From NCBI GenBank assembly GCA_947561715.1, contig OX387203.1, positions 1,736,001 through 1,800,000 on the forward strand: a DNA stretch of 64,000 nt. The letters are read 5' to 3'. Positions within the stretch are counted from its first letter, which is position 1; the number at the start of each line of letters is the position of its first letter. The translations under genes were made by a program, and so were the position numbers. The notes beneath the pieces are model-generated. The model worked only from the letters and a program-made list of their open reading frames with translations, did not search any database and was not told the origin of the DNA. Source of the stretch: Ascidia mentula (Eukaryota > Chordata > Ascidiacea > Phlebobranchia > Ascidiidae). This document shows positions 8,803-36,532 of the stretch, in pieces.

Positions 8803-11555
8803 TTAAGTTCTCTCTTCAACCACCCCTAACTTTATATTTTTACGTAGTTGACTTGTCATTGTTGGGACGTGAAGTCCAACCACTTTGGACATCCGTTGAG
8901 TAACCATAGTTAGAACCTGAATAAAACTGTGTTTGTTTGTTTTATTTTATTTGAAAGTGCATACTTACAGTTTTTATGTCAATTACTTTAAATTTTGCCT
9001 TCATAAGTTCTCGGCATAACGTAGATATGAACAGAGTACCCTTATCCAAGCTCCCCGGCTCTGGTTCTATGAAAGTGATTTATAGAAGGAATAAAATCAT
9101 AATTGTCGCTCGCAAAAATTTCGAAAGAGAAAGTTGCTGCTTTTGTCATTGCATCTCATGATACCAGATAAAACATGATGTTTGTTTTAACCAACTGTTA
9201 CTCATATTGACTAACCTGGAGAAGTGGAATAAAAAATCAACGTGTCGGCAGTTTCCGGAATAATGTGGTGTTCTACACAAGGAGTCGCTGCAGGCACTCT
9301 TTTTAGGGGTGCCTTGCAAAACAATAATCATTAATATTACGTTATCATGCCGCTAATGCAATTTAGGCATACCTGGATGACAAATAGTTTTGGAATTCCT
9401 TCTAACCTATAGCAATCTCTTCCACGAAAGTTGTTCACAAAATCTTTGAGTTTGTATGTACCACCATGTTCATCGTAAAGTACGTCATGCGTTTTGGAGT
9501 ATGTTTTAATAACACACACCAAGCAGTCAGTTTGAAAAGTTGGGTGCAGCGAACCTTAGTAGGGCAGGTATTTAAAGGGTGCATCAAACAATGTTATTGT
9601 CATTTGTTTTGTTTAATGCGGTTTTAGTGCTAACAAATTGCACTTCATTGCAGTTTTGCAATATGCTTATTGGCAACCACAGATTTTTTTCTGGTAAGGA
9701 TCTCTTACTTTTGATATTCTCGGTCATGGCTTGCTTGTTAGTAATCTCACGGAACACAGTTTGAAAATTTAGATAAAGTCCCACTTCACACAGAAATCGC
9801 GTATCATCGTCTGTCTAAGAAAACAATTTTTTTGTCGGGTGGAAATTCTTTCAGTTTGTGAAAAAAATAATTTTAACTTATTTTAAGGATTTTATATGCA
9901 CTGAAACAACATCGTTTTTAATACAATTGTTCAACTGATCTCCATCTGAAAATATCGCCGAACACAGGAAAACTGTTTTTGTGATAATCGCCAAATTGGA
10001 CAAAATTGGGAATATCGAGCGACACAAGATTATCCACTTTGCAAAAGTACCTCGTTACCGAAAATCACCAATAGGCCTGGTCGATATCTTTTCTGATAGA
10101 AACTGAAATTTTGTAAAAACATGACTTTGCTGATACAACCCGACAAATAGCGACAATCTATTCGGCCGAATACTTACACTTTTTGCGTGTACTGTGGTGT
10201 TATTGGTTCTCGCAGATGCAACGCAGCTGTTAGCTGGCTTGAAAACGTTGGCATCTGTATGTCCTTCAAACTTGTCTCGTTTGCAGTTGACTTATTTACC
10301 AATGTCAAAATCTAAGGCCAAGATTAAGTACATTTAAACGTCTTAAAACTTGGTCATAGTGTAGATCAGTTTGTAGGTGGAAGTGTTGATGAGCCGCACC
10401 GATCCAAAATATATAAATAATTATAGCCTAAATAAATAAAAAAAAAATTAAGTATGGATCCCTAAAAAACTTACATCCACCAAATCGTGAAGGTTTTGGT
10501 CTTTTATAGCTTTGCCAAACTCAACAATGTAATCAGAACCATCTCTCACATCCACCCACGTCTTGTAATCTTGAAAATCAGTATTTATGTTTATTTTATC
10601 ATTACTTTCTGTATATGTAGCAATAAAATAATTAGAGGCATCGAACCTGGACAAGTTGAATGAGCAACTATAAAGTGTGCTTCCTGTGGTACAGTTAATG
10701 TGCTACTTGTTAATGTGCTACGGTTTTCTGCAAACGTTGTTGCAGATGTTGCCCGGTTTTCTTGGTCTCCTCTGCACACCTGCAGAAAGGATGGTATTAC
10801 CCAAAAGAAAAATAAATACAACAGTGTAAGTATATTAATAGCCATCGGTATTCGTCACACAAACAAGTAAATTGGTTTTGTTTAAAGACCAGTACATAAA
10901 TAACAATAAAATATAAATAAAATATCATCATCATAAGTAAATCCATTGAGATCTTTGAGTCTGGAACAACCAGAAAGTTGGTAAATATGAAGATCTTGAT
11001 AGATGCAAAATGTATGTATTCTTACATTTAAAAGAAAAAACTTAGGTTTTTCAGCTAGACTTGTGCAATTTTTTGAAGTAAATTGTTCCAAAACGTAGGA
11101 TAGATCAAACTTAATTCCGTCCGATGCGTACATAGTATCGTTGCATCCACCGTGAGTCAGAATCGCCATTGCAAAGCAGGTAGCGTCACTATGATCTTCT
11201 TTTGAATCTACTGGACAACATAGTTGTGTTTTACATGTTCTATTTTAATCATTGCAATCGACAAACATTCATTAAGTAGCCTGTAGAAGTCTTCACAATT
11301 AGTGTTGCCATGTGTTTTCACATCAAATCCTACATCTTTTACAGCATTTTCCAATGTTTTGACATCTTGAGTGAATCCTTCTAGAGATGAAAAACCTGAA
11401 ACGTTCTAAAAAATATTTTTTCTTCTGAAACTAATTTTTTGATCCGTTTAAATTAAGGAGCAGAATTATACTTTGTTGGAGAAAATTGCAAATTTTCCCA
11501 TCCTCTTCCCTTGTGCGTACACTCGTATTTGATCCTCGCCTCCAGTTTCTTCCAT
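8803..11555 (-). CDS. Double-caspase protein A1, active-like plus dead domain
   Basis: Twelve exons with matching phases encode about 471 residues: 11472-11555, 11267-11405, 11026-11207, 10647-10779, 10475-10569, 10178-10311, 10051-10102, 9709-9814, 9373-9554, 9216-9312, 8969-9066, 8803-8916. Domain 1 (residues about 20-256) is a caspase p20/p10 fold without a long prodomain. It keeps the catalytic His93 (LTHGG) and Cys137 (VCRGD), and PQEAHFIVAHSTCP marks the p10 start. Domain 2 (about 257-471) repeats the fold: RPGLLVIFGNE, VCVIKTYSKTHD, PKLFVIQ, ETADTLIFYSTSP. Tyr327 stands for the His and Pro371 for the Cys. ATG 11555 is chosen because caspase homology begins at once after it. A cFLIP-like regulatory role for domain 2 is inference. 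Substrates are unknown. Confidence 0.8.
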
Positions 11556-13674
11556 ATTACTTGTTTTACTTAAACTCTTCTTTTACTTACGATAAAGCAG
11601 CTTGCGTATGTGGAGGTAGCCTTTAGTTATTTTTCTGTTTAGTTTTACACCTAACTTTGAACCTGATTTGCATACAAACGGTACAATTAACCCTGTTTCA
11701 CGAAATAGTTGCAAAATTTTGCAGGCTAATCAAGAAAAGAGGCTTTGGGGCAGAATATCCTGTAACAAATACAGCCAGCCGAAGCTTAAGGGAATTCAGA
11801 GCAAGATATACCCTTCAACTACGATTGTTTGTTGTACGTTTCGCTGCTGACGACCATTGGGGTTTTGAATGCCAATAGCGTATTCGAGAAAGTTGCTTCG
11901 CACGTGGATTGCCCAGCGGTCTCCTCAATATAGACTTGGTCGTTACAAAATCATTAAACTGTACCCCAAAGCCAAAGTACAATCTGATAAATCGTGATAA
12001 TTATTTATTTGGTGAACTTAAACGGCCTGTTTTATTTTGCTTCAGTGCCTTATACCTCAATTCTGGACCTCAATCCCCCATCGAATCCCCTTTTTTCGTC
12101 TGCAACCCACCACTGGTATAATGGTACAATTTGAAAGGAACTGTTAGGTGCTTAGCAATCATTGAAGACTTGGCAACATTTATCTTTGCCTTTTCCTAAA
12201 AGTCATGATGTGTTTCTGAGACATATATCACTTCCTGTAAACTTTTGCTTCATCTAACTTTGTGCAGCTGCAAACTGATTGTGTTTTATTTTCTCTTCTG
12301 TTTCTCAATCCTCTTTTTTCTCTGGGATTTTATGACTTTGTGGAACTGTGTGCAAAACATGTTTGCTTTTTCGTGTCAACGAACTCAGCGCAGTTTCGAT
12401 GGGGTTTCGTTGGCTGTTCTTGTGTTTACACACTTGTTGCGAGCGTGAAAATATTGCAAAACATACTTGAATTTATATGGGTTAACCTTTTGTACGCTAT
12501 CAGTCCTGCAAATTAAAACATACAAACAGACTATAGCCTACCAACAAATTACAAGAAACAACCCAGCCATTGCCCAACGCAACATAACTCAAATTGTACT
12601 ACAGATTATAACGGGGTAACTTTGACTTCCATCCGAGACTTTTTACCAAGAGCTGCTTAACTTTAAACTATTGCAACAAATTTAGGTCAATGCCAAAACC
12701 TCCACATGTTGTGGCAAACACCCAGTTTGAGAGCACGCATAAGTGCTACATGCTTGCCCTTGAGATGACAGGATCGCCCCATTGCGCGGGCCTCCTTAAT
12801 TTCTGTGATCTTAGCTCACCTTGAACATGAGATGATGTAAATGCCGTAAATTTATGCAACAAACGCTTTGTTAAGCCGAAGTGCTTTAGGAATCTACTGT
12901 GTATTGATACAGTTCAAACAGATAAGGTAACGTTAGGTTCCCAGGAATCATCAACCATGTCACCCTGCATGAGACACAAGTTTTTTTTTCTTTGCGTCAG
13001 CTTAGTATGCTTGTATTGTGTAACGTTTTCTCCTATTCGTTATATGACAATGTACGCAATAGGTAGCGCTTAGCTTATATTGTTAGTCGCAGAGTTCGTC
13101 CGTGAACCTTAGAGTGATTATTGTCGTTTTTGAGGACTGATATGTCCCGAAAAACCCGGCTTTCTTCTATCTTCTTCAGTAAATAACATTCTCAATCGTC
13201 CCTTTAAAATATGTTTGTTCCTTCGAGCCTTGTGAATCCTAATAGTTATGTGTTACACGGTTAACATTGCATCGAGTCTCGTGGTGAAGAATTAGTATAA
13301 AACAACCAAGAACCACACATCAAACAAAGGCAGCTCTAAGCGACGAAAATAATTTACACTGTACACATAAAGGTTGATATGCGTCAACAACATTAACTTT
13401 ATAACCTATAAACTTGTTACACAATGACGAGGTTGGGTGTGCGAATATGTAACTTATTGTTACCAGCAATCAACCCCTTTCATATTTTCTTCCTGTACCC
13501 ACTGCACTTGCTTGGTGACGTTATTCAAGGGTGTGAGTAATAAATTTGTTTTCGTGTATATTCATTTTTCACAGAAGTTGATTGCCAAGCAAAGATCATT
13601 TGTACAAAATTGCTTCAAAATCATCTCCAGACATTTATTCGAATTAAACTTTAATGTTCTTTCAAATGAATATG
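11556..13674. other. Intergenic between A1 and B1
   Basis: It holds the 5' flank of A1 and the 3' flank of B1. Bases about 12245-13600 recur at about 27213-28500 and 32230-33600. Overlapping frames of 67-84 codons at 12245-12516 are open in two frames at once and show no family resemblance. No promoter element is clear enough to name. Confidence 0.5.
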
Positions 13675-16410
13675 CTAATTAATGGCGATTTTCTTGCGCA
13701 GCTGGCTGGTCACCGTTGGAACATGTAGTCCAACTACTTCTGACATTGTTTGTGTCACCAGAGAGAATGCCTAAAAACAAGAATTACTTAATTATTGTAG
13801 GATGTTGTACCCACAGAAACTACGTACGCTGAGCAAATCACGTTTTGTGCTGCGCATGTTTCGAAGTTCGTCACACAGTGTGTGGATAAATAAAGTCCCG
13901 CTTTCACTGTTTGGTTGTGGTTCTGTTGAATGAACAATGTCAGAAAAATAATATTGCACATTAACTAAGTTGCACATCTTGTTTTCAAGTAAAATCAAAT
14001 ATTAGATCTAGCAAAGTGTGAACGTTGTGCTATTTTATTCCTAATTAAACGAACCTGGAGAAGTTGAGTAAAATATCAGCGTGTCCGCAGTGTCTGGAAT
14101 AACATGTTCGGTGCCTGGATTACTATCCCCGGCAGGTACCATGACATATGGCGCCTTAACAAAAGACGAAAGTTAACTGGCATCGGACAACACGTCTGTT
14201 TCAACATGTTTGATTCACTGCTGGGTTTATGGTATTTGAAAACCATATATGGAGACACAATGCATCATCGTACCTGAATTATGAATATCTTGGGCATTTT
14301 AAGTAGCGATTGGCACTCGATTCCATGAAAGCGTTGAACAAATTCTTTAAGTTTGTACGCCTGGTTGTCGCCGACCAAAAGTTCGTCGTGGATTTTACTG
14401 TACGTTTTTATCACACAAACGAAGCAATCGTGGTCCTGGTGATTTGCCTTGATATCTGAAAATGCAGAAATGCATTAGTATTATGGGGTAATTTTTTTAA
14501 TGTTTGTCAGAAAGCTATTTGATGCATGTAACCATGCAAAATATGAATCAGCTGTTAGTTTTTGTAAAAGAAAGTTACTCACATTTAGTTGCAATATCCT
14601 GTAAATCTTGCTTGCTTTTCTTCGAAAAGAACTCGACTTCAAAATTTAGATCTCCTGCAACTGCTTCCAGCTTTTCCACGTCATCATCCCTCTAAAATTT
14701 CATAAATGTTTTGTCGTATATGTGTATTTTTGGTTACCGTATCCATGGTAATTGTTATATTTGTTATTAACAAAAACAAAAATACCTCATTGCTGAAAAT
14801 GTAAAACAACCCACGGTTTGCCTGTCTCATAGTGTAAGACCTAAAAAAAGTTTTGCGTATGATGCAAAAACAATTATTCTGAAATAATGAGAGGTGCTTT
14901 TATTATAAAGTCATCTGTTACAAATGCAAACTTTACCATGGTGCATTCATTTAGGTTTGTTGTTGATGATTTCTGTTCAAAAATCTCAAGATATACCATT
15001 TTTTCGAGAGTGTTTCGGTGCTTGGCTCCCGCAAATGGAATTCAGGTGTGAGTTGACTTGAGAAGGTAGGCATTTGCAGAAAATCTGAATCGTATTCCTC
15101 AGCACTTATTTCTGCCGTCGTCCCACTCACCCAAGTCAACATCTGTTTAATTCGACACCACGCTAAATTTTTACACAATTTCTGTGTGATGCGAAAACTT
15201 GTGTATATTTGTTTGAAATCTGTTTAACAATTCATGCACAACAAGACGGTCACATTGAACAAGGTATGTGCATTGTTGTTAGCGTACGTAACAGCTCAGG
15301 GAAGTGTGTTAGTCGCGTATAGCCTAATAATAAGTTTATGTGACCTTACGTCATGTATGTCGTGGAAGTCGTTGTTTCGAATTGCCTCGCAAAACTTGTT
15401 GACGTAAAAGGATCCAATACTTGGCCCGACAAACGACTTGTGGTCTAAACAAATCATTTGCTTTGATTTGTTGAAACAAAACTTCAAACAGATCATACCT
15501 GCTGGACAGGTAGAATGAGCGACCAAGAAGTCCGCTTCTTTTGGTATTGTTAGCACTTTGGTTTTTCTCTCTTCCTGAGGTAGAGTCGAAAAAGTTTTGG
15601 GAGCGCCTCTGCTGTACTGTTCCCCTCTGCATGTCTCATAAATAAAATATCTTTTCATTTCGACGTCAGAACAACACATATTCCACCGCTTTTTTGAAAG
15701 TGCCAAAGAAACAACAAAATTACTTACGTTTAGAAGAAAAAATTTAGGTTTTCCTTTCAGACTTTTGCAGGAGTTAACCGTAAACTTTTCCAACGCAAAT
15801 GAAAGATTGTACTGCGCACCATCAGATGCATATATGTTATCTTCATAATCGCCATGAGTAAAAATTGCCAGTGCAAAACATGAAGAATCGCTGTGATCTA
15901 CTTCTGTGGCATCTACAGAGCATAACAAAACTTATAAAATTCCTAGAACCTAAGTATGAAAATACTGTAGATCGAAGTTTAATACAACATTAACACCAAT
16001 ATATAGTATCTTTTGATTGACACTGGGGTCATACTACTGAATTTCATGACATCATCGAGGGTCATTACCTTCCACATTCTACAACATGTAATGTTTTAGT
16101 TAAACGTTATTTCGATTATTGACAAACATGATGAAATTAACATATCTGCATGCATAAAATAGACTGTTTGGCAAACAAGCATACCACAATTACGTGTTTA
16201 AAATGTCTTAATATATATACGACGTAAATACGATATTTAATAACAGCTTAAAATATCTACGACGTGTTGAAGAATTGCTTAATTTTGTACTCTAATGTAA
16301 AGTTTGGTCCCAACCGTGTTGTAAATTATCACAAACTTTCCCATTTTCTCCATCTTCTTGTAAACCTTTGATTTCGCTGGTTTCAAGGGTTTCCCATCAA
16401 CTGTTTGCAT
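13675..16410 (-). pseudogene. Double-caspase gene B1, domain 1 missing exon 2
   Basis: Exon 1 (16315-16410) and exons 3-12 (15728-15912, 15499-15634, 15350-15444, 14997-15142, 14786-14840, 14583-14691, 14274-14455, 14055-14154, 13828-13922, 13675-13770) are open with correct phases. Exon 2, the first helix of the p20 fold, is cut to a stub near 16050-16080: about 0.28 kb present in B2 and B3 is gone, and the join runs into a stop. Domain 1 otherwise keeps IFTHGDYED and TCRGEQY. Domain 2 is complete and inactive-type (IIQ then APYVMVPAGD). Exon 1 could not splice to exon 3 in phase. I take it as a decaying copy that might still express domain 2 alone. Confidence 0.7.
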
Positions 16411-16855
16411 TGTTGTATCTTTACTTCGAGCAATGATTGAAAAACACCAACTGCTTTGTAACAAACCGTTTTCTAAATTGCAAATGAACTTGAAATCAAC
16501 ATTCCAAAATCGTTACGGAGTAATTGACAAAAAAAGATTTAATTTATTTGGTTCCAATATAAGTTGCCACAACAACGAAACATTTACATCACGTCAATGC
16601 AAAAAAGGTTTGTGCCGTGAGGAAATGAGCATTACGTTTATGTGACGTGACAGAGTTTCAGTTCCTTCGCGTGCTTTACCGCGCACTCATTTTAAGGCTT
16701 ACTCCAGGTCGTTGCAGTTAAACTACCTCCCCTCCATATTGGCACAAAACCACATTCGAAACGCACTACAAAAGCGGGTACTTCAAACCTGGGTAAGTTT
16801 AACACCGGTCTGTATAGCCAGCGGCTGTACTGATTGCTTTTTGAAGGCATCGTAA
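16411..16855. other. 5' flank of B1, duplicated upstream of B2 and B3
   Basis: No gene is seen. The sequence is close to 31300-31540 and 36533-36966, the upstream flanks of B2 and B3, so it is the likely promoter-bearing region of type-B genes. I cannot name individual promoter elements. Confidence 0.45.
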
Positions 16856-17550: not shown

Positions 17551-17553
17551 TAA

Positions 17554-19696: not shown

Positions 19697-19707
19697 CGAT
19701 TTGAAAC

Positions 19708-20011
19708 ATTCCTAGAGCTCCAAAGGGAGTAAAAGACGATCAGCGCCAGAATACGATGTTTATTTCACAGAAATATTAATTTCGCCTATTTGGCATCTTC
19801 AGTTTCTGTCTAAAACAGAATAGCAATAAAAAATAAAAAATTAAAACCACAACAAAAACAAAAACTCAACAATAAGTCCACTATCGGGACTGCCAAGACA
19901 AAAGCCGAAGCGGTTAAAACGATAAAAACTGTTTTCTACAACAAGCCGCTGTGGTACCAAGAGAAACAACGAGAGACTATGCACTGAAGGTGTTAGTAGC
20001 CGAACGCAAAA
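19708..20011. repeat. Left inverted arm of the GIY-YIG element
   Basis: This is the reverse complement of 20640-20942 with only a few differences, including two extra bases near 19978. It begins ATTCCTAGAGCTCC. It holds a compact double-hairpin motif at about 19780-19820. Confidence 0.85.
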
Positions 20012-20127
20012 AAATGGGACGAGCAAGGGTAGTGACGTAGAACTGCGATAAGGCGATGACGAACACAGAATACAAAAACAGTGAGGGAAATGAAAACAAA
20101 AAAAGAGACGGGAGAGCGCAAAAATGG

Positions 20128-21596: not shown

Positions 21597-22597
21597 AGGA
21601 AACTTTCTTGCATAGTCATTTTGGGAACATGTCGTCCAACCACTCCTGACACTGTTTGTGTAACCAGAGAGAGCCTGAAAACAACAATAATTCAGTCGTT
21701 AATGAGCAGTGAGCTGCCGCTCATTATAAGCTTTACATTCAAATCTTAATCAAGCATTCCAGACCCCACAAGTACCCTTACAGAATCATCCACAAAATGA
21801 CTCATTGTGATTAATGTGTCAGATAACAAAGCATTTTCGGGAATTGTCAGACGACCAATGCACGCAAAGTTTGGTACTTACGCTGAACAAATCACATTTT
21901 ATGGTGCGCATGTTTCGAAGTTCTTCACAGAGTGTGTGGATAAATAAAGTCCCGCCTTCACTGTCGAGTTGCGGTTCTGTTCAATAAATTGAAATATCGG
22001 CAAGTTTAGGATGTCCATATATGGACAATCTATACATGTCCATAGAATTTTATTTATGTGTGTGTTTTGGACAAATTAAACGTTGTGCTATTTTATTATC
22101 ACTAAAACAAACCTGGAGAAGTTAAGCAAAAGATAAGTTTGTTCGCAGTGTCTGGAATGATATGGTTGGTGGTTGGATTGCTCGTCCCCGCAGCTAACAT
22201 TACATCTGGCGCCTAAACAAAAAGTGAACCTGACGTGCCAACTCTTTACCACGATATACTCATGGTCACGTTCATTGCTTTGTACATTTATTTACTAATG
22301 ATTACGTTAACATCTACTGGAATATAAATTTAGTATGACTAATTGGCCAACGTTAATTCGCCACTAACAATCTGTTCTCCTATTATTATTTTTTTACTGA
22401 CTGTTTGTTATTTAAAAGGCCATGTATAGAGATACACAATGCCTCATTGTACCTGTATTTTGAATATCTTGGGCTTTTTAAGTAGCGATGGGCACTCGAT
22501 TCCATGAAATCGTTGAATAAATTCTTTAAGTTTGTACGCCTGGTTTTCGCCGTCCAAAAGTTCGTCGTGGGTTTTGCTGTACGTTTTTATCACATCA
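21597..22597 (-). pseudogene. Domain-2-only remnant, exons 9-12
   Basis: Exon 9 (about 22450-22597) is open and reads VIKTYSKTHDELLDGEN and KPKIFKIQ before a GTACAA donor. Exon 10 (about 22113-22214) begins APDVMLAAG and has lost the TADTLIFYS core (now TANKLIFCL). Exon 11 (about 21884-21982) is open. Exon 12 (about 21600-21677) is shortened and out of frame. There is no domain 1. It is a decaying fragment of the same family, positioned downstream of gene A2 as 7825-7975 is downstream of A1. Confidence 0.6.
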
Positions 22598-23425
22598 ACA
22601 AACAAACTTTATGACGGAGAAACGTTCATCTACCGTAAGACTGCAACCGCTCGCACTGGCAAGTGATTGGTTTGTAGCGTTGGATGGCGCAAAAGACAAC
22701 GCAAGAGGTGATGCAACCAACAGTGATTCAACTCAATTGGCTTGCAAACACAAAAGATACACGTCTCCGCTTTTGCTGTTTCGCCGACGTGATGAAATTA
22801 GTAAAATAAACATTGCCAAAGTAAAAAGTTTTATTTTCGATTGCTCATCTTTTCCGAAGCTCGGCAACCTACACATTTAAGCGTCCAACGCATATTACTG
22901 TAGAGTAACTTCTGGGATGGTGTGCGTAAGTAGTATTTCCGGTGTGGACTGATCATCTGGAATTTGCCTAATAATATCCTTAAATTTTGCGACGTCGTAA
23001 ACTGGTAACAAGCTATTTATTAATTCTGTTCGCTACCTCCGATTACAGTATGTACATTGTCACCTCGCCCTTTAAACATTAGGCAAGAAGCGTGTCAAAA
23101 ATGTAGTGAAAATATTAAATTTTACAATCAAGGTGTTAAGTTAAGGCCAATGCAAGTAACAACATAGCACTGTAGTATTTACTGCTGCAAAATAGATTGT
23201 GATTTTTGATCTACATTGGTCCGGTCAAAACGGTTTAACTCAAATGCAATGAAAAAATTGAAGATTTCGAACAAGCACGTACTCTAGCGTTTGCACGTAC
23301 AGTAAAAATTGCAATTTAGCACTTTACCATAAGACTAGCGAGACAAAACTATGAGTTAAATTTTCGACAACGCTTATAATTTCATGCTTTGATTGATATC
23401 CAATGTCAAAATTCTTTTTCTGTGT
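22598..23425. other. 3' flank of caspase gene A2
   Basis: A near-identical copy of 7970-8802. It holds the second copy of the doubtful 89-codon frame. No gene is called. Confidence 0.45.
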
Positions 23426-26201
23426 TTAAGTTCTCTCTTCAACCACCCCTAACTTTATATTTTTACGTAGTTGACTTGTCATTGTTGGGACGTGAAGTCC
23501 AACCACTTTGGACATCCGTTGAGTAACCATAGTTAGAACCTGAATAAAACTGTGTTTGTTTGTTTTATTTTATTTGAAAATGCATACTTACAGTTTGTAT
23601 GTCAATTACTTTAGATTTTGCCTTCACAAGTTCTCGGCATAAGGTATGGATGAACAGAGTACCATTATTCGAGTTCCCCGGCTCGGGTTCTATAAAAGTG
23701 ATTTGTAGAAGGAATAATGTCATAATTGTCGCTCGCAAAAATTTCGAAAGAGAAAGTTGCTGCTTTTGTCATTGCATCTCATGATACCAGATAAAACATG
23801 ATGTTTGTTTTTACTAACTGTTACTCATATTGACTAACCTGGAGAAGTGGAATAAAAAATCAACGTGTCGGCAGTTTCCGGAATAATGTGGTGTTCTACA
23901 CAAGGAGTCGCTGCAGGCACTCTTTTCAGGGGTGCCTTGCAAAACAATAATCATTAATATTACGTTATCATGCCGCTAATGCAATTTAGGCATACCTGGA
24001 TGACAAATAGTTTTGGAATTCCTTTTAACCCATTGTAAACTTTACCACGCAAGTTGTTCACAAAATCTTTGAGTTTGTATGTACCACCATGTTCATCGTA
24101 AAGTACGTCATGCGTTTTGGAGTATGTTTTAATAACACACACCAAGCAGTCAGTTTGAAAAGTTGGGTGCAGCGAACCTTAGTAGGGCAGGTATTTAAAG
24201 GGTGCATCAAACAATGTTATTGTCATTTGTTTAGTTTAATGCGGTTTTAGTGATAACAAATTGCACTTCATTGCAGTTTTACAATATGCTTATCGGCAAC
24301 CACAGATTTTTTTCTGGTAAGGATCTCTTACTTTTGATATTCTCGGTCATGGCTTGCTTGTTGGTAATCTCACGGAACACAGTTTCAAAATTTAGATAAA
24401 GTCCCACCTCACGCAGAAATTGCGTATCATCGTCCATCTAAGAAAACAATTTTTGCATCTACGAACTAGCTGGAAACTACACTTGGCAGTTTCTGGCCTG
24501 CTGTCGGGTGGAAATGCCTTCAGTTTGTGAAAAAAATGATTTTAACTTATTTTAAGGATTTTATATGCACTGAAACAACATCGTTTTTAATACAATTGTT
24601 CAACTGATCTCCATCTGAAAATATCGCCGAACACAGAAAAACTGCTTTTGTGATAATCGCCAAATTGGACAAAATTGGGAATATCGAGCGACACAAGATT
24701 ATCCACTTTGCAAAAGTACCTCGTTACCGAAAATCACCAATAGGCCTGGTCGATATCTTTTCTGATAGAAACTGAAATTTTGTAAAAACATGACTTTTGC
24801 AGATACAACCCAACAAATAGCGACAATCTATTCGGCCGAATACTTACACTCTTTCCGTGTACTGTGGTGTTATTGGTTTTCGCAGATGCAACGCAGCTGT
24901 TAGCTGGCTTGAAAACGTTGGCATCTGTATGTCCTTTTCTTCTGTTTTCTTTGCAGTTGAATTATTTACAAATGTCAAAATCTAAGGCCAAGATTAAGTA
25001 CATTTAAACGTCTTAAGACTTGGTCATAGTGTAGATCAGTTTGTAGGTGGAAGTGTTGATGAGCCGCACCGATCCAAAATATATAAATAATTATAGCCTA
25101 AATAAATAAAAAAAAAATTAAGTATGGATCCCTAAAAAACTTACATCCACCAAATCGTGAAGGTTCAGGTCTTTTATAGCTTTGCCAAACTCGACAATGT
25201 AATCAGAACCATCTCTCACATCCACCCATGCCTTGTAATCTTGAAAATCAGTATTTATGTTTATTTTATTATTACTTTCTGTATAAAATAATTAGAGGCA
25301 TCGAACCTGGACAAGTTGAATGAGCAACTATAAAGTGTGCTTCCTGTGGTACAGTTAATGTGCTACTTCGGTTTTCTGCAAACGTTGTTACAGATGTTGC
25401 CCGGTCTTCTAGGTCTCCTCTGCACACCTACAGAAAGGATTGTATTTACCAAAACAAAAATAAATATAGCAGTGAAAGTATATTAATAGCCATCGGTATT
25501 CGTCACACAAACAAATAAATTGGTTTTGTTTAAAGACCAGTACATAAATAACAATAAAATATAAATAAAATATCATCATCATAAGTAAATCCATTGAGAT
25601 CTTTGAGTCTGGAACAACCAGAAAGTTGGTAAATATGAAGATCATGATAGATGCAAAATGTATGTATTCTTACATATAAAAGAAAAAACTTAGGTTTTTC
25701 AGCTAGACTTGTGCAATTTTTTGCAGTAAATTGTTCCAAAACGTAGGATAGATCAAATTGAATTCCGTTCGAAGCGTACATAGTGTCGTTGTATCCACCG
25801 TAAGTCAGAATCGCCATTGCAAAGCAGGTAGCGTCACTATGATCTTCTTTTGAATCTACAGGACAACATAGTTGTGTTTTACATGTTCTATTTTAATCAT
25901 TGCAATCGACAAACATTCATTAAGTAGCCTGTAGAAGTCTTCACAATTAGTGTTGCCATGTGTTTTCACATCAAATCCTACATCTTTTACAGCATTTTCC
26001 AATGTTTTGACATCTTGAGTGAATCCTTCTAGAGATGAAAAACCTGAAACGTTCTAAAAAATATTTTTTCTTCTGAAACTAATTGTGATCCGTTTAAATT
26101 AAGGAGCAGAATTATACTTTGTTGCAGAAAATTGCAAATTTTCCCATCCTCTTCCCTTGTGCGTACACTCGTGTTTGATCCTCGCCTCCAGTTTCTTCCA
26201 T
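23426..26201 (-). CDS. Double-caspase protein A2, domain-1 His lost
   Basis: The same 12-exon plan as A1, with all phases kept and no stop, starting at ATG 26201 and ending at 23426. Domain 1 reads ILTYGGYND where A1 has ILTHGGCND, so the catalytic His is Tyr. The VCRGD cysteine remains. The residue before the Cys dipeptide is Tyr rather than Asn. Domain 2 has the same double loss as A1 (KTYSKTHD; VIQ then APLKRV). A1 carries a 12-bp in-frame duplication in exon 4 that A2 lacks. A2 would thus be two inactive caspase folds in one chain. It is open throughout, so it may still act as a binding or decoy protein; this is inference. Confidence 0.75.
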
Positions 26202-28570
26202 ATTACTTGTTTTACTTAAACTCTTCTTTTACTTACGATAAAGCAGCTTGCGTATGTGGAGGTAGCCTTTAGTTATTTTTCTGTTTAGTTTTACACCTAA
26301 CTTTGAACCTGATTTGCATACAAACGGTACAATTAACCCTGTTTCACGAAATAGTTGCAAAATTTTGCAGGCTAATCAAGAAAAGAGGCTTTGGGGCAGA
26401 ATATCCTGTAACAAATACAGCCAGCCGAAGCTTAAGGGATATTCAGAGCAAGATATACCCTTCAACTACGATTGTTTGTTGTACGTTTCGTTACACGCGC
26501 TGCTGACGACCATTGGGGTTTTGAATGCCAATTAACCTATTCGAGAAACGTTGCTTCGCTCGCGATTGCCCAGTGGTCTCCTCGATATAGACTTGGTCAC
26601 CATTTATTTATTTGGTGAACTTAAAACGGCCTTTTTTATTTTGCTTCAGTGCCTTTGATTGATTTATGTAAGGTAGCTCGCACAAAATGAAAATTTTTTG
26701 TAGCGACATACTTATGTGTTAGGATTGCCAATGCGTTGTGGCAGAAAATGATGTAATATATATTCCGCGTCGTTTAAACTGTTCGTTGGTAAAAAGTTTT
26801 TTGTAGATACTTTTATGTGGCGGAAAAGGCAAGTATTATTCTATGGTCATTATAATTTTTGTAACATAGTACCCCACATAAAATTAGCATATATAAAAAC
26901 AATCATTTTGATCTTGTATACGAATATTGATGATGATTTCTATTTGAAATTGCCTCCACCAAGAATGTACATCGCCCGACTCGCTACCAGACCAAATTTT
27001 TTATTTAACTGCTCCAATATACCTCAATTCTGGACCTCAATCCCCCATCGAATCCCCTTTTTTCGTCTGCAACCCACCACTGGTATAATGGTACAATTTT
27101 GAAAGAAACTGTTAGGTGCCTAGCAATCATTGAAGATTGGGCAGCATTTATCTTTGCCTTTTCCTAAAAGTCATGATGTGTTTCTGAGACATATGTCACT
27201 TCCTGTAAACTTTTGCTTCATCGAACTTTGTGCAGCTGCAAACTGATTGTGTTTTGTTCTCTCTTCTGTTTCTCAAACCTCTTTTTTCTCTGGGATTTTA
27301 TGACTTTGTGGAACTGTGTGCAATACTTGTTTGCTTCTGGGTGTCAACGACCTCAGCGCAGTTTCGATGGGGTTTCGTTGGCTGTTCTTGTGTTTACACA
27401 CTTGTTGCGACCGTAGAAAATATTGCAAAACATACTTGAATTTATATGGGTTAACCTTTTGTACGCTATCAGTCCTGCAAATTAAAACATACAAACAGAC
27501 AATAGCCTACCAACAAATTACAAGAAACAACCCAGCCATTGCCCAACGCAACATAACTCAAATTGTACTACAGATTATAACGGGGTAACTTTGACTTTCA
27601 TCCGTGACTTTTTACCAAGAGTTGCTTCAACTTTAAACTATTGCAACAAATTTAGGTCAATGCCAAAAACTCCACATGTTGTGGCAAACACCCAGTTTGA
27701 GAGCACGCATAAGTGCTACATGCTTGCCCTTGAGATGGCAGGATCGCCCCACTTTCGGGCCCCTTTCATGTGATCTCAGCTCACCTTGAACATGAGATAA
27801 TGTAAATGCCGTAAATTTATACAATAAACGCTTTGTTAAGCCGAAGTGCTTTAGGAATCTACTGTGTATTGATACAGTTCAAACAGATAAGGTAATGCTT
27901 GTATTGTGTAACGTTTTCTCCTATTCGTTATATGACAATGTACGCAATAGGTAGCGCTTAGCTTCTATTGTTAGTCGCAGAGTTCGTCCGTGAACCTTAG
28001 AGTGCTTATTGTCGTTTTTATTGTCGACTGATATGTCCCGAAAAACCCGGCTTTCTTCTATCTTCTTCAGTAAATAACATTCTCAATCGTCCCTTTAAAA
28101 TATGTTTGTTCCTTCGAGCCTTGTGAATCCTAATAGTTATGTGTTACACGGTTAACATTGCATCGAGTCTCGTGGTGAAGAATTAGTATCAAACAACCAA
28201 GAACCACACATCAAACAAAGGCAGCTCCAAGCGACGAAAACAATTTACACTGTACACACAAAGGTTGACATGCGTCAACACCATTAACTTTATAACCTAT
28301 AAACTTGTTACACAATGACGAGGTTGGGTGTGCGAATATGTAACTTATTGTTACGAGCAATCAACCCCTTTCCTATTTTCTTCCTGTACCCACTGCACTT
28401 GCTTGGTGAAGTTATTTAAGGGTGTGAGTAATAAATTTTTTTTATTTTCGTGAATAATCATTTTTCACAGAAGTTGATTGCCAAGCAAAGATCATTTGTA
28501 CAAAATTGCTTCAAAATCATCTCCAGACATTTATTCGAATTAAACTTTAATGTTCTCTCAAATGAATATG
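26202..28570. other. Intergenic between A2 and B2
   Basis: The duplicate of 11556-13674 with an extra segment at about 26620-27000 that resembles 790-1070 and 32095-32230. Overlapping short frames at 27213-27588 are not supported as genes. Confidence 0.45.
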
Positions 28571-31299
28571 CTAATTAATGACGATTTTCTTGCACAGCTG
28601 GCTGGTCACCGTTGGAACATGTAGTCCAACCACTTCTGACATTGTTTGTGTCACCAGAGAGAATGCCTAAAAATAAGAATTACTTAATTATTGTAGGATG
28701 TTGAACCCACAGAAACTACTTACGCTGAGCAAATCGCATCTTGTGCTCCGCATGTTTCGAAGTTCGTCACACAGTGTGTGAATAAATAAAGTCCCGCCTT
28801 CACTGTTGGGTTGTGGTTCTGTTGAATGAACAATGTCAGAAAAATAACATTGCACATAAACTAAGTTGCACATCTTGTTCTACAAAATTTTCAAGTCACA
28901 ATCAAATTATTAGATCTAGCAAGGTGTGAACGTTGTGCCAACATGTTCGGTGCCTGGATTACTATCCCCGGCAGGTACCATGACATATGGCGCCTTAACA
29001 AAAGGCGAAAGTTAACTCGCATCGGACAACACGTCTGTTTCAACATGTTTGATTCACTGCTGGTTTTATGGTATTTGAAATGCCATATATGGAGACACAA
29101 TGCATCATCGTACCTGAATTATGAATATCTTGGGCTTTTTGAGTAGCGATTGGCACTCGATTCCATGAAAGCGTTGAACAAATTCTTTAAGTTTGTACGC
29201 CTGGTTGTCGCCGTCCAAAAGTTCGTCGTGGGTTTTACTGTACGTTTTTATAACACAAACGAAGCAATCGTGGTCCTGATGATTTGCCTTGACATCTGAA
29301 AATGCAGAAAAGCATTATTATTAAGGAAGAATTTTTTTAATGTTTGTCAGGAAGCTATTTGATGCATGTAATCATGCAAAATATGAATCAGCTGTTAGTT
29401 TTTGTAAAAGAAAGTTACTTACATTCTGTTGCAATATCCTTGACTGTTCCATAGTGTAGGACCTAAAAAAAGTTTTGTGTGTGATGCAAAAACAATTATT
29501 CTGAAATAATGAGAGGTGCTTTTATTATAAAGTCATTTGTTGCAAATGCAAACTTTACCATGGTGCATTCATTTAGGTTTGTTGTTAATGATTTCTATTC
29601 AAAAATGTCAAGATTTACCATTTTTCCGAGAGTGTTTCGGTGCTTGGTTCCCGCAAATGAAATGCAGCTGTAAGTTGACTTGAGAAGGTAGGCATTTGCA
29701 GAAAATCTGAATCGTATTCTTCAGCACTTATTTCTGCTGTCGTCCCACTCACCCAAGTCAATATCTGTTTAATTCGACACCACGCTAAATTTTTACACAA
29801 TTTCTGTGTGATGCGAAAACTTGTGTTTATTTGTTTTAAATCTGTTTACCAATTCATGCACAACAAGACGGTCACATTGAACAGGGTATGTGTATTGTTG
29901 TTAGCGTACGTAACAGGTCAGGGAAGTGTGTTAGTCGCGTATAGCCTAATAATAAGTTTATGTGACCTTACGTCATGTATGTCGTGGAAGTCGTTGTTTC
30001 GAATTGCCTCGCAAAACTTGTTGACGTAAAAGGATCCAATACTCGGCCCGACAAACGACTTGTGGTCTAAACAAATCAATTGCTTTGATTTGTTGATCCA
30101 AAACTTCAAACAGATCATACCTGGACAGGTAGAATGAGCGACCAAGAAGTCCGCTTCTTTTGGTATTGTTAGCACTTTGGTTTTTCTCTCTTCCAGAGGT
30201 AGAGTCGAAAAAGTTTTGGGAGCGCCTCTGCTGTACTGTTCCCCTCTGCATGTCTAATAAATAAAATATCTTTTCATTTCGACGTCAGAACAACACATAT
30301 TCCACCGCTTTTTTGAAAGTGCCAAAGAAACAACAAAATTACTTACGTTTAGAAGAAAAAATTTAGGTTTTCCTTTCAGACTTTTGCAGGAGTTAACCGT
30401 AAACTTTTCCAACGCAAATGAAAGATTGTACTGCACACCATCAGATGCATATATGTCATCTTCATAATCGCCATGAGTAAAAATTGCCAGTGCAAAACAT
30501 GAAGAATCGCTGTGATCTACTTCTGTGGCATCTACAGAACATAGCAAAACTTATCAAATTCCTAGAACCTAAGTATGAAAATACTGTAGACCGAATTTTA
30601 ATACAACATTGACACCACTATATAGTATCTTTTGATTGACACTGGGGTCATACTACTGAATTTCATGACATCATCTGCCGTGTTGACACTTACGTACTTT
30701 GTCTTGATGAAGGTCGATTGCATGAAGACCGTAACGCCGACCAGGAAGATTATTTTTGCCAGAAAAGCTTAAAAATTGGCTATTTTAAATCATTTGCATT
30801 TGCTTACAATAATCAAACTGGGCCAGCACATCCGCACATTTTATATTCGGGTGTGTTATCGCTTCGAATCCGAGGTCTTTTACTTCTTTGGAAAGTGCAT
30901 CTGCATCATCTTTCGTCCCTAGGAGAGGGTCCTTACCTTCCACATTCTACAACATGTAATGTTTTAGCCAAACGTTATTTCGATTATTGACAAACATGAT
31001 GAAATTCATGTATCTGCATCAATAAAATAGAGTAAATGGCCTTTCTTGCAAACAAGCATACCACAATTACGTGTTCAAAATGTCTTAAGTTTTGATATGC
31101 ATACGACGTTAAGTATATACGATATTTAATAACAGCTTAAAATATCTACGACGTGTTGAAGAATTGCTTAATTTTGTACTCTAATGTAAAGTTTGGTCCC
31201 AACCGTGTTGTAAATTATCACAAACTTTCCCATTTTCTCCATCTTTTTGTAAACCTTTGATTTCGCTGTTTCCAAGGGTTTCCCATCAACTGTTTGCAT
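28571..31299 (-). CDS. Double-caspase gene B2, domain 1 whole, domain 2 decayed
   Basis: Exons 1-6 (start ATG 31299) are open and in phase and encode a complete active-type caspase domain: KVYKKMEKMGKFVIIYN, IFTHGDYED with the His, TCRGEQYSRGAP with the Cys, PKEADFLVAHSTCP, and the C-terminal strand LQMPTFSSQLTAAFHLREP. In domain 2, about 0.24 kb is deleted so that exon 7 runs into exon 8 out of frame (near 29440-29452). The 3' half of exon 10 with its donor is also deleted (near 28940). If intron 6 is retained the frame stops at once after SEKW, so B2 could still make a one-domain caspase of about 260 residues. Product length is inferred. Confidence 0.65.
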
Positions 31300-33631
31300 T
31301 GTTGTATCTTTGCTTTGAGCAACGATTAAAAAACACCAACTGCTTTGTAACAAATCGTTTCTAAATTGCAAATGAACTTGAAATCAACATTGAAAATTCG
31401 TTACATAATAATTGACAAAAAAAGTTTTAATTTATTTGGTAACAATATAAGTTGCCACAACAACGAAACATTCACAACGCGTCAATGCAAAAAAGGTTTG
31501 TGCCGTGAGAAAATGAGCATTACGTTTATGTGACGTGACAGCCTGAAGCTCAGTCGGCAACACCGTTACGCATGACTGGGTTTGAATAGTGGGACGGCGT
31601 AATATTTAAGCCGGCAGTCCAATTGGTTAACGTTCACGGACTGTAATCCTAGAGCTTGCGCACAACGACGACGTTAAATATGGATTTGATGTAGAAGTTT
31701 TTCCATATTTGGGGAATAGTTGAACTTATATCTGTTGCTTCGATATCATGTTTTTTTTTAAATCTTTGACCAGAAAAATCGCTGAAGTACCTTCGCAACA
31801 TGTGGGCTTTCAATCGTTGATCGAATAATATGTTTCGTAATTCCGGATGTGTTTCTCTCGAAATTGACATTTGCGGTCAGACCAAACACTTCAACATTTC
31901 CTATTTTTACCCATCTCAACGCTTAGGAATTTGTTGTGGCCAAAAGGTTGCATTTTCTCAAAGGAAGTCAAGCCCTAAAAACCAAGTGCCAGTCCCAATC
32001 CGGCAACGATAAGAGTTAAATTTCCATATAAATCACAAACACCCATTGTCCGTAATGTGTTGTGTAATCTGGACATGCGTTGTCTTACTTGAAAAACTTA
32101 AACGGCCTTTTTTATTTTGCTTCAATGCCTTTGATTGATTTCTGTAAGGTAGCTCGCACAAAATGAAAATTTTTTGTAGCCACATACTTATGTGTTAGGA
32201 TTGCCAATGCGTTGTGGCAGAAAATGATGTAATCTAACTTTGTGCAGCTGCAAACTAATTGTGTTTTGTTCTCTCTTCTGTTTCTCAAACCTCTTTTTTC
32301 TCTGGGATTTTATGACTTCGTGGAACTGTGTGCAAAACATGTTTGCTTTTTGGTGTCAACGACCTCAGCGCAGTTTCGATGGGGTTTCGTTGGCTGTTCT
32401 TGTGTTTACACACTTGTTGCGACCGTAGAAAATATTGCAAAACATACTTGAATTTATATGGGTTAACCTTTTGTACGCTATCAGTCCTGCAAAAATAAAA
32501 TATACAAACATACAATAGCCTACCAACAAATTACAAGAAACAACCCAGCCATTGCCCAACGCAACATAACTCAAATTGTACTACAGATTATAACGGGGTA
32601 ACTTTGACTTTCATCCGTGACTTTTTACCAGTAGTTGCTTCAACTTTAAACTATTGCAACAAATTTAGGTCAATCCCAAAAACTCTACATGTTGTGGCAA
32701 ACACCCAGTTTGAGAGCACGCATGAGTGCTACATGCTTACCCTTGAGATGGCAGGATCGCACCACTGCGGGCCCCTTTCATTTTTGTGATCTCAGCTCAC
32801 CTTGAACATGAGATAATGTAAATGCCGTAAATTTATACAATAAACGCTTTGTTAAGCCGAAGTGCTTTAGGAATCTACTGTGTATTGATACAGTGCAAAC
32901 AGATAGGGTAACGTTAGGTGCCCAGGAATCATCAACCATGTCACCCTGCATGAGACACAAGCTGTTTTTTCTTTGCGTCAGCTTAGTATGCTTGTATTGT
33001 GTAACGTTTTCTCCTGTTCGTTATATGACAATGTAGGCAATAGGTAGAGCTTAGCTTCTATTGTTAGTCGCAGAGTTCGTCCGTGCACCTTAGAGTGATT
33101 ATTGTCGTTTTTGAGGACTGATATGTCCCGAAAAACCCGGCTTTCTTCTATCTTCTTTAGTAAATAACATTCTCAATCGTCCCTTTAAAATATGTTTGTT
33201 CCTTCGAGCCTTGTGAATCCTAATAGTTATGTGTTACACGGTTAACATTGCATCGAGTCTCGTGGTGAAGAATTAGTATAAAACAACCAAGAACCACACA
33301 TCAAACAAAGGCAGCTCTAAGCGACGAAAATGATGTACACTGTACACATAAAGGTTCACATACACTCGTTACACAATGACGAGGTTGGGTGTGCGAATAT
33401 GTAACTTATTGATACCAGCAATCAACCCCTTTCATATTTTCTTCCTGTACCCACTGCACTTGCTTGGTGAAGTTATTCAAGGGTGTGAGTAATAAATTTT
33501 TTTTATTTTCGTGTATAATCATTTTTCACAGAAGTTGATTGCCAAGCGAAGACCATTTGTACAAAATTGCTTCAAAATCATCTCCGGACATTTATTCGAA
33601 TTAAACTTTAATGTTCTCTCAAATGAATATG
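31300..33631. other. Intergenic between B2 and B3, recombinant
   Basis: This is a mosaic. At 31545-32095 there is an R2 segment carrying a degraded copy of the small secreted-protein candidate. At 32095-32230 there is a piece of type-A upstream flank. From 32231 it matches the 12.2-13.6 kb intergenic segment. The two abrupt joins mark past unequal exchange or deletion. No intact gene is seen. Confidence 0.5.
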
Positions 33632-36532
33632 CTAATTAATGGCGATTTTCTTGCGCAGCTGGCTGGTCACCGTTGGAACATGTAGTCCAACCACTTCTGA
33701 CATTGTTTGTGTAACCAGAGAGAATGCCTAAAAACAAGAATTACTTAATTATTGTAGGATGTTGAACCCACAGAAACTACGTACGCTGAGCAAATCACAT
33801 TTTGTGCTGCGCATGTTTCGGAGTTCGTCACACAATGTGTGAATAAATAAAGTCCCGCCTTCACTGTTGGGTTGTGGTTCTGTTAAATGAACAATGTCAG
33901 AAAAATAATATTGCACATTAACTAAGTTGCACATCTTTGTGTTGTGCCATTTTACTCTTAATTAAACGAACCTGGAGAAGTTGAGTAAAAGATCAGCGTG
34001 TCCGCAGTGTCTGGAATAACATGTTCGGTGCCTGGATTACTATCCCCGGCAGGTACCATGACATATGGCGCCTTAACAAAAGGCGAAAGTTAACCCGCAT
34101 CGGACAACACGTCTGTTTCAACATGTTTGATTCACTGCTGGTTTTATGGTATTTGAAATGCCATATATGGAGACACAATGCACCACCGTACCTGAATTAT
34201 GAATATCTTGGGCTTTTTAAGTAGCGATTGGCACTCGATTCCATGAAAGCGTTGAACAAATTCTTTAAGTTTGTACGCCTGGTTGTCGCCGTCCAAAAGT
34301 TCGTCGTGGGTTTTACTGTACGTTTTTATCACACAAATGAAGCAATCGTGGTCCTGGTGATTTGCCTTGATATCTGAAAATGCAGAAATGCATTAGTATT
34401 ATGGGGTAATTTTTTTAATGTTTGTCAGAAAGCTATTTGATGCATGTAACCATGCAAAATATGAATAAGCTGTTAGTTTTTGTGAAAGAAAGTTACTTAC
34501 ATTCTGTTGCAATATCCTGTAAGTCTTGCTTGCTTTTCTTGGAAAAGAACTCGACGTCAAAATTTAGATCTCCTGCAACTGCTTCCAGCTTTTCCACGTC
34601 ATTATCCCTCTAAAATTTCATAAATGTTTTGTCGTATATGTGTATTTTTGGTTACCGTATCCATGGTAATGGTTATATTTGTTATTAACAAAAACAAAAA
34701 TACCTCATTGCTGAAAACGTAAAACAACCCACGCTTTGCCTGTTCCATAGTGTAGGACCTGAAAAAATTAGGGTATGGTGCAAAAACAATTACTCTGATT
34801 AAGAGACGTGCTTTTATTATAAAGCTATTTGTTACAAATGCAAACTTTACCATGGTGCATTCATTTAGGTTTGTTGTTGATGATTTCTGTTCAAATATGT
34901 CAAGATTTACCATTTTTCCGAAAGTGTTTCGGTGCTTGGCTCCCGCAAATGAAATTCAGCTGTAAGTTGACTTGAGAAGGTCGGCATTTGCAGAAAACAT
35001 GAATCGTATTTTTCAGCACTTATTTCTGCCGTCGTCCCACTCACCCAAGTCAATATCTTTTAAATTCGACAACACTTTAAATTTGTTACACAATTTCTGT
35101 GTAATGCGAAAACTTATTTGTGTTTATTTGTTTGAAATATGTTTAACAATTCATGCACAACAAGACGGTCACATTGAACAGGATATGTGCATTGTTGTTA
35201 GCGTACAACAGCCCAGGGAAGTGTGTTAGTCGCGTATAGCCTAACAATAAGTTTATGTGACCTTACGTCATGTATGTCGTTGTTTCGAATTGCCTCGCAA
35301 AACTTGTTGACGTAAAAGGATCCAATACTCGGCCCGACAAACGACTTGTGCTCTAAACAAATCAATTGCTTTGGTTTGTTGCACCGAAAGTTCAAACAGA
35401 CCATACCTGGACAGGTAGAATGAGCGACCAAGAAGTCCGCTTCTTTTGGTATTGTTAGCACTTTGGTTTTTTTCTCCTCCAGAGGTAGGGTAGTGAAAGT
35501 TTTGGGAGCGCCTCTGCCGTACTGTTTCCCTCTACACATCTGACAAAATAAAATATCTTTTCATTTCGATGTGAAAGCAACACGTATTACAAGAAACAAC
35601 AAAATCACTCACGTTTAAAAGAAAAAATTTCGGTTTTCCATTCAGTTTTTTGCAGGATTTTACCGTAAACTTTTCTAACACTTGTGATAGATTGTACTTC
35701 ACGCCATCAGATGCATATATTTCATCTTCATAATCGCCATGAGAAAAAATTGCCAGTGCAAAACATGAAGAATCGCTGTGGTCTACTTCTGTGGCATCTA
35801 CAGAACATAACAAAACTTATCAAATTCCTAGAACCTAAGTATGAAGATACTGTAGATCGAATTTTAATACAACATTAACACCACTGTGTAACATCATTTG
35901 ATTGACACTGGGGTCATACTACTGAATCATCTGCCGTGTTGACACTTACGCACTTTGTCTTGATGAAGGTCGATTGCATGAAGACCGTAACGCCGACCAG
36001 GAAGATTATTTTTGCCAGAAAAGCTTAACAATTGGCTATATTAAATCATCTGCATTTGCTTACAATAATCAAACTGGGCCAGCACATCCGCACATTTCAT
36101 ATTCGGGTGAGTAATAACTTCGAATCCGAGGTCTTTTACTTCTTTGGAAAGTGCATCTGCATCACCTTTCGTCCCTAGGAGAGGGTCCTTACCTTCCACA
36201 TTCTACAACATGTAATGTTTTAGCCAAACGTTATTTCGATTATTGACAACATGATGAAATTAACATATCTGCATGCATAAAATAGACTGTTGCAAACAAG
36301 CGTACCACAATTACGTGTTTAAAATGTCTTAATATATATACGACGTAAATACGATATTTAATAACAGCTTAAAATATCTACGACGTGTTGAAGATTTGCT
36401 TAATTTTGTACTCTAATGTAAAGTTTTGGTCCCAACCGTGTTGTAAAATATAACAAACTTTCCCATTTTCTCCATCTTCTTGTAAACCTTCGATTTCGCT
36501 GTTTCCAAGGGTTCCCCATCAACTGTTTGCAT
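33632..36532 (-). CDS. Double-caspase protein B3, intact type B
   Basis: Twelve exons in consistent phase from ATG 36532 to the stop at 33632 encode about 473 residues. Domain 1 (about 1-262) reads MGKFVIIYN, GTKGDADALSKEVKDLGFE, IFSHGDYED (His98), FFLLN joined to MCRGKQY (Cys142), PKEADFLVAHSTCP and QMPTFSSQLTAEFHLREP. The linker after the Cys has no Asp. Exon 6 ends in phase 2 and joins exon 7, giving the Trp that leads into domain 2 (about 263-473): SYTMEQAKRGLFYVFSNE, CVIKTYSKTHDEL (Tyr335 in place of His), KPKIFIIQ, then AP (Pro379 in place of Cys), PDTADTLIFYSTSP and FIHTLCDELRN. It is the only type-B copy with both domains whole. Its function is presumably in a caspase-related pathway; the role of domain 2 is inferred. 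Confidence 0.8.

Follow-up and report, generated by a model that had tools for sequence, protein, structure and literature searches.

A predicted caspase–pseudocaspase fusion in a gene cluster of the ascidian Ascidia mentula

Does a cluster of caspase-like genes in an ascidian genome encode single chains with two caspase folds, or is each apparent double gene a pair of adjoining genes? The window, i.e. the whole 64,000-nt stretch of DNA analysed, had been described in a sequence-only reading as holding a gene family that fuses two whole caspase domains across a phase-2 intron; that reading took the source for Ciona, and it is Ascidia mentula.

Gene models and the exon 6–7 join

Three minus-strand genes, A1 (11555-8803), A2 (26201-23426) and B3 (36532-33632), each comprise 12 exons whose frame is open to the stop, with GT-AG borders in 33/33 introns and the same order of intron phases: 0,1,0,1,0 in the first half, 2 at the exon 6–7 join, and 0,1,0,1,0 in the second half. 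The exon-by-exon models proposed earlier, the A1 exon 6/7 edges at 10178/10102, and the phase-2 join with its frame running through 12 exons in all three copies were right; the product, given there as 471 residues, is computed as 472 aa for A1, 467 aa for A2 and 473 aa for B3.

All coordinates that follow lie on the minus strand. In A1, domain 1 (the caspase, 10178..11555) is encoded by exons 1-6 (11555-11472, 11405-11267, 11210-11026, 10779-10647, 10569-10475, 10311-10178) and domain 2 (the pseudocaspase, 8803..10102) by exons 7-12 (10102-10051, 9814-9709, 9554-9373, 9312-9216, 9066-8969, 8916-8803); intron 6 (10103..10177; 75 nt, phase 2, AGT/gtaagtat ... acaaaatttcag) connects the domains. 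The corresponding parts of A2 are domain 1 (24848..26201; exons 26201-26118, 26053-25915, 25855-25674, 25427-25307, 25239-25145, 24981-24848), intron 6 (24772..24847; 76 nt, phase 2), and the pseudocaspase domain 2 (23426..24771; exons 24771-24720, 24437-24332, 24177-23996, 23935-23839, 23689-23592, 23539-23426). An alternative start of A2 exon 3 at 25858 was rejected, as it lacks an AG; the correct start is 25855. B3 consists of domain 1 (34911..36532; exons 36532-36437, 36202-36064, 35797-35613, 35539-35407, 35352-35267, 35056-34911), intron 6 (34759..34910; 152 nt, phase 2, ATG/gtaaatct ... ttttttcag, with one AATAAA inside), and the pseudocaspase domain 2 (33632..34758; exons 34758-34704, 34609-34501, 34373-34192, 34071-33972, 33879-33785, 33727-33632).

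Just beyond the window (C71:1731601-1728344) there is a fourth and diverged copy, C, which has 12 open exons with the same 11 phases. Exon 7 measures 52 nt in A1 and A2, 55 nt in B1, B3 and C, and 46 nt in D, a copy of domain 2, and is thus always 1 mod 3. Because C keeps the 11 phases and exon 7 keeps this length class, the pattern exceeds chance, which bears out the earlier remark that it would be hard to obtain by chance.

Domain identity and catalytic residues

Peptidase_C14 (PF00656) scores above cut-off in both halves of A1 and B3. Domain 1 matches span nearly the whole model (E 5.1e-35 for A1, 8.2e-28 for C, and 8.7e-40 for B3, where residues 27-248 align to model positions 5-232 of 233), and domain 2 matches (B3 4.8e-27, A1 4.2e-16, C 3.6e-21, D 5.7e-15) begin at model position 22-25 and reach 231 of 233. 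The full predicted B3 and C chains contain two PF00656 stretches each, and both halves match PDB caspases. No CARD or DED was detected: at E 0.01 the complete B3 and C chains match PF00656 alone, and neither prodomain was found at E 10 in the A1 halves scanned separately.

The two halves differ in what remains of the active site. Among the five domain 1 copies counted, which exclude the broken B1, the catalytic dyad is retained in four: Cys in 5/5 and His in 4/5, with Tyr at this position in A2, whose row in the residue table is one codon too long. In domain 2 the dyad is lost in 6/6 copies, Cys being replaced by Pro in all six and His by Y, T or D (Tyr and Pro in A1). The earlier reading missed both this loss and that of the P1-Asp pocket in domain 1. 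At the columns aligned with the S1 pocket residues R64, Q161 and R207 (caspase-3 numbering), none of the three is present in any of the five copies, including A1 and B3, in which His and Cys are kept; in C an Arg lies one residue away from an S1 column. In 11 single-caspase models of the same genome, R64 is found in 10, Q161 in 11 and R207 in 10, with one R64 outside coverage and two models having first exons in common. By reading, no Asp was found in the inter-subunit linker of B3 domain 1.

Copies, history and rates

Within the span 8803..36532, three of five copies (A1, A2 and B3) are intact throughout, which makes four open 12-exon copies counting C. B1 (13675..16410, minus strand) is broken by the absence of most of domain 1 exon 2, its domain 2 (14840-13675) being open; B2 (28574..31299, minus strand) has an open domain 1 (31299-29619), but in its domain 2 exon 8 is largely missing, as are a portion of exon 7 and the end of exon 10. 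A spliced scan also located, among the matches listed, at least four domain 2 remnants on the minus strand: three with no domain 1 seen (21873..22606, 1360..2253 and 4023..4665) and a single exon (7840..7971). As matches without caspase features scored up to ~200 in the first scan, run with a low intron penalty, weak ones were ignored and the regions were rescanned. No domain 1 was found upstream of D (score 24, vs 24-36 for block-shuffled controls and 551 for the positive control), and domain 2 may therefore exist alone. The genome contains at least 87 caspase-like exon matches.

In the tree, in which the A2 row is one codon too long, the N-terminal halves form one clade (100/98) and the C-terminal halves another (100/100), with C joined to A and B through long branches; the domain pair therefore probably arose once and was then copied as a unit. 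Six single-caspase models from this genome have introns at the same places and in the same phases as each half. Single caspases were sampled at 16 loci, of which 14 yielded 15 models (none from L004 and L071) and 11 models entered the tree (L002, L040, L067 and a second L076 model stayed outside). None of the 15 was modelled as a double gene, other arrays having only been sampled. The L075 model, with a 5.7 kb intron and first exons common to L006, is probably a chimera of neighbours.

Domain 1 and domain 2 change at like rates: dN (domain 1/domain 2) is 0.047/0.042 for A1/A2, 0.446/0.463 for A1-B3, 0.661/0.696 for A1-C and 0.589/0.535 for B3-C. For A1/A2, dN/dS is 0.80 in both halves and not clearly below 1; for the B pairs it is 0.29-0.30; and between A, B and C the protein is conserved at saturated dS in both halves. 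Exons and introns of the B pairs show no difference (52/785 vs 56/830; 24/637 vs 19/489), and A1/A2 exons differ more than their introns (61/1404 vs 36/1322; Fisher p 0.02). Nucleotide conservation is therefore no marker of exons here, and the coding signal comes only from the dN/dS of the B pairs and from the deep comparisons.

A whole-genome search with peptides from B3 exons 6-8 (12 matches) and A1 exons 6-9 (11 matches), at E up to 10, found no intronless retrocopy spanning the junction, a result that speaks neither for nor against splicing. One weak match does span the junction (C52:17531885; 32% identity at E 0.041, inside an open frame of 870 aa), but it has no caspase motif by reading and was taken as chance.

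One chain or two, and comparison with known caspases

Support for two caspase folds within a single predicted chain comes from the intron phases and frames, the Pfam hits, the tree, and the comparison of stops and donors below; A1, A2, B3 and C likely encode fusion proteins. The rival of fusion is a two-cistron operon, in which a single-domain caspase would stop at the TAA ending exon 6 and exons 7-12 would form a second gene, its mRNA being trans-spliced to the leader at the acceptor of exon 7. The A. mentula genome uses spliced-leader trans-splicing: the Ciona SL exon has 2157 exact genome copies, and its reversed control has 0. In Ciona, operon genes adjoin without intergenic DNA, account for about one fifth of genes, and are frequently mispredicted as fusions (PMC2760879). 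An in-frame TAA does occur at the exon 6 donor in A1, A2, B3 and C; B exon 7 has an in-frame ATG and B intron 6 the AATAAA, and intron 6 of A and C contains an in-frame ATG. However, any phase-2 GTAA donor yields TAA, and the would-be domain 1 stop falls on a GTAA donor (G before TAA) in 3/3 lineages vs 0/9 single caspases, the nine contexts coming from a motif search in loci at hand, four of which (L006, L033, L042 and L065) share one array and are not independent. B1 reads TAT instead of TAA at this codon, yet retains the GT. Moreover, the lineages have no domain 2 start site in common: exon 7 of A, C and D has a conserved beta-1 strand yet lacks an ATG, and reading upstream in frame from D meets a stop before any ATG. 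AATAAA and ATTAAA are absent from intron 6 of A and C, a weak point because in only 3/9 single caspases does either motif occur within 300 nt of the stop. The stop/donor comparison and the lack of a common start thus weaken the two-cistron explanation, which we regard as unlikely.

The same TAA would also fit a gene that makes both products, the fusion when exons 6 and 7 are spliced and a domain-1-only protein when intron 6 is retained; since that codon arises from any phase-2 GTAA donor and is missing from B1, we consider this distinctly improbable. Finally, the broken B1 and B2, the remnants of domain 2, the loss of the catalytic His in A2 and the dN/dS of A1/A2 would suit a decaying cluster of mostly pseudogenes with the fusion as a functionless relic, an explanation made very improbable by the four open copies, the low dN/dS of the B pairs and the conservation of both halves between A, B and C.

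We therefore favour fusion, with confidence somewhat above even, as the origin of a caspase–pseudocaspase chain that would form an intramolecular heterodimer. An ancestral 6-exon caspase gene would have duplicated head to tail, and the two copies would have fused via the phase-2 intron into one protein with an N-terminal caspase and a C-terminal pseudocaspase; the fused gene would then have multiplied in the cluster as A, B and C, with A1/A2 and B1-B3 arising by local segmental duplication. One mRNA would carry both halves, which, by analogy with caspase-8 and FLIP(L), may fold and pair within the chain. The dead half could keep the live half dimer-like, with neither partner nor cleavage required, as the linker of B3 domain 1, without Asp, would suggest; and because the P1-Asp pocket is gone, the first half might cleave after non-Asp residues or bind and regulate the numerous ordinary caspases encoded in this genome. 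Both the heterodimer and the role given to it are drawn from analogy. More tentatively, and at well below even confidence, we propose a permanently paired single-chain caspase, a non-Asp N-terminal protease held active or silenced by its dead C-terminal twin, that originated independently of those of corals and mammals and in reversed order. Should the fusion be translated, coral, mammal and ascidian would each have a caspase tied to a dead caspase, in both orders, which would suggest that caspase–pseudocaspase tethering is a repeatable substitute for regulated dimerisation; the lost aspartate pocket of the live half in turn raises the question of what a caspase does without P1-Asp recognition.

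Although two caspase folds per predicted chain stand in several copies, the architecture, held earlier to be undescribed, has precedents in Acropora caspase-X, mammalian caspase-16 and Mytilus. Acropora caspase-X (AmCaspases Xa-Xd; cDNA and HeLa assay) likewise has two caspase domains per chain, one without catalytic His and Cys; there the dead domain comes first, and the active C-terminal one is a typical caspase in every respect (PMC4715348). In the ascidian it is the live domain that is N-terminal, and it lacks the Asp pocket. Mammalian caspase-16 similarly owes its doubled caspase domain to exon duplication, with one half lacking catalytic residues and an interaction between the domains proposed, but its dead half is N-terminal and its exons number 11 vs 12 here (PMC12198278); the two fusions probably have separate origins. 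Mytilus coruscus has four caspases with two CASc domains per protein (PMC10967218). In pairing an active caspase with a pseudocaspase, the predicted ascidian chain resembles caspase-8/FLIP(L), which are separate chains with DED prodomains (PMC7586951), unlike B3 and C, in which no DED or CARD was found. The double-domain design is thus already known; in the predicted ascidian chain the live half comes first and the dead half second.

Exon structure and caspase identity

A gene with two caspase units is present in five copies on the minus strand at 36532-8803: A1 (11555-8803), A2 (26201-23426) and B3 (36532-33632) each run through 12 exons open to a stop (472, 467 and 473 aa), and two are broken relative to B3, B1 (16410-13675) lacking most of exon 2, and B2 (31299-28574) missing some of exon 7 and the greater part of exon 8, with the end of its exon 10 swapped for unrelated sequence. 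All five were modelled with a purpose-written spliced protein-to-DNA aligner, A1 and B3 by hand as well. The 33 introns of A1, A2 and B3 are all GT-AG, and their phases run 0,1,0,1,0 through exons 1-6 (domain 1), 2 at the junction, and again 0,1,0,1,0 through exons 7-12 (domain 2); the sequence-only reading, that phase and frame hold across 12 exons with a phase-2 join between exons 6 and 7, is thus borne out. Six single-domain caspase models elsewhere in the genome (L003, L005, L006, L039, L075 and L077) have introns at identical places and phases, so that each half resembles a caspase unit of six exons.

The second caspase fold proposed in that reading also stands: domain 2 matches Pfam C14 in A1, in B3 and in C, a relative outside the window. 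In B3, the domain 1 match spans positions 5-232 of the 233 in the model (E 8.7e-40), that of domain 2 positions 22-231 (E 4.8e-27); the respective values are 5.1e-35 and 4.2e-16 for A1, and 8.2e-28 and 3.6e-21 for C. At E 0.01, C14 is the only family in the full-length B3 and C chains, with two stretches in each. Against solved structures, the top matches were procaspase-7 for the domain 1 profile (5.3e-38) and 3sir (Caspase) for that of domain 2 (2.7e-17). Judged by these profile matches, each half is a caspase domain.

Contrary to the suggestion that a second caspase fold in cis was undescribed, this architecture is known: double caspases are already in print (e.g. in passages of PMC4715348 and PMC12198278). 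Our literature search found no double caspase described for tunicates and no live-dead domain order; urochordate caspases are the subject of Weill et al. 2005 and Terajima et al. 2003, as cited in a passage of PMC2779465.

Genome setting, origin and selection

The 79 contigs of the assembly searched total 195.8 Mb; the published Ascidia mentula assembly has 95 scaffolds and 197.0 Mb (a passage of PMC11109543). The searched assembly holds 87 caspase-domain matches, counted exon by exon (E <= 0.001), on contigs C52, C70, C71 and others; caspases have expanded greatly, many of the matches standing in arrays on C52 and C70. Copy C (C71:1731601-1728344, locus L074), left of the window, is a fourth open copy with 12 exons to a stop, all 11 phases as in A1, A2 and B3, GT-AG in 11/11 introns and an uncertain start codon. 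D (C71:1734652-1733132; L074:5132-6652) is a diverged domain 2 pseudocaspase whose exon 7 retains the phase-2 entry; no domain 1 was detectable upstream of it (score 24 vs 24-36 in shuffled controls). Domain 2 remnants lie at 1360-2253, 4023-4665, 7840-7971 and 21873-22606. The A and B units have undergone repeated local segmental duplication (7631-16855 and 22244-36977, ~90-96% identity). Inside the cluster, a GIY-YIG nuclease domain ORF (20128-20652, minus strand, E 3.9e-7) is flanked by near-identical ORFs on opposite strands, mirrored around 19814-20840, and is probably part of a mobile element.

A 22-row tree places the five domain 1 sequences together on one side of a branch (100/98) and all six from domain 2 on one side of another (100/100, with C_D2 on a long branch); both splits recur in every one of 200 bootstrap trees. 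The branching order differs between the two clades, with weak support within that of domain 2. Most simply read, the pair had a single origin and was then copied as a unit. In comparisons among A, B and C, dN is alike in domains 1 and 2 (0.45/0.46, 0.66/0.70 and 0.59/0.54), with synonymous sites at saturation. dN/dS is 0.29 for B2/B3 domain 1 and 0.30 for B1/B3 domain 2; for A1/A2 it is 0.80 in each half, not clearly below 1. Between A1 (8803-11555) and A2 (23426-26201), divergence is higher in exons (61/1404) than in introns (36/1322; p 0.02) and is concentrated in exon 6 (14/134) and exon 11 (12/98), possibly through diversifying selection or intron conversion.

One protein or two cistrons

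The serious rival to a single fused protein, though in our judgement an unlikely one, is an operon in which domains 1 and 2 are separate cistrons, with a stop after exon 6 and a spliced leader added at the exon 7 acceptor. The genome uses the Ciona spliced leader, whose exon has 2157 exact copies in it and its reversed control none; among the matches listed, a tandem array (period ~720 bases) occupies C1:15239666-15297871. Ciona operon genes have no intergenic DNA between them and are often mispredicted as fused genes (a passage of PMC2760879). An in-frame TAA follows domain 1 in A1, A2, B3 and C, and in B, intron 6 contains AATAAA and exon 7 an ATG. However, that TAA belongs to a GTAA donor in 3/3 lineages, whereas a G precedes the stop in 0/9 single-domain caspases (nominal chance 1 in 220 by our own calculation, although these nine genes are not independent of one another); in B1, TAT replaces TAA and the GT is kept.

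Start sites for a second cistron also count against the rival: exon 7 codes the conserved beta-1 strand, yet lacks an ATG in A, C and D, and D has none before the next stop upstream. Candidate ATGs lie only within intron 6 in A and C but within exon 7 in B, so that the lineages share no start site, whereas they do share the phase-2 acceptor; exon 7 length is 1 mod 3 in all six copies. Intron 6 of A and C lacks AATAAA/ATTAAA, which weighs little because just 3/9 single-domain caspases have such a motif at most 300 nt from the stop. Whole-genome searches with junction-spanning B3 and A1 peptides found no retrocopy joined across exons 6 and 7.

Active sites and proposed pairing

Domain 1 retains the catalytic Cys in 5/5 copies and the His in 4/5 (Tyr in A2), the broken B1 being outside the count. 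Equivalents of R64, Q161 and R207, the caspase-3 residues that hold the P1 aspartate, are missing from 5/5 domain 1 copies; among 11 single-domain models, R64 is present in 10 (one not covered), Q161 in 11 and R207 in 10. In all 6/6 domain 2 copies, both His and Cys are lost and the R64 loop is gapped. By these losses, domain 2 is a pseudocaspase and domain 1 at best a protease with changed specificity.

Caspases act as dimers, and we propose that the putative live half and the dead half of the predicted ascidian protein would pair much as in the following systems, in reversed order. FLIP(L) is missing the critical cysteine, and its dimer with caspase-8 has one active site (a passage of PMC7586951), and a two-domain interaction has been proposed for caspase-16 (a passage of PMC12198278). 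In Acropora caspase-X, as described in passages of PMC4715348, the live half is dampened by the dead half in HeLa cells, and the halves pair through beta-6 in a model; there the dead half is N-terminal and the live half C-terminal, whereas in the ascidian gene the putative live half comes first and the dead half second.
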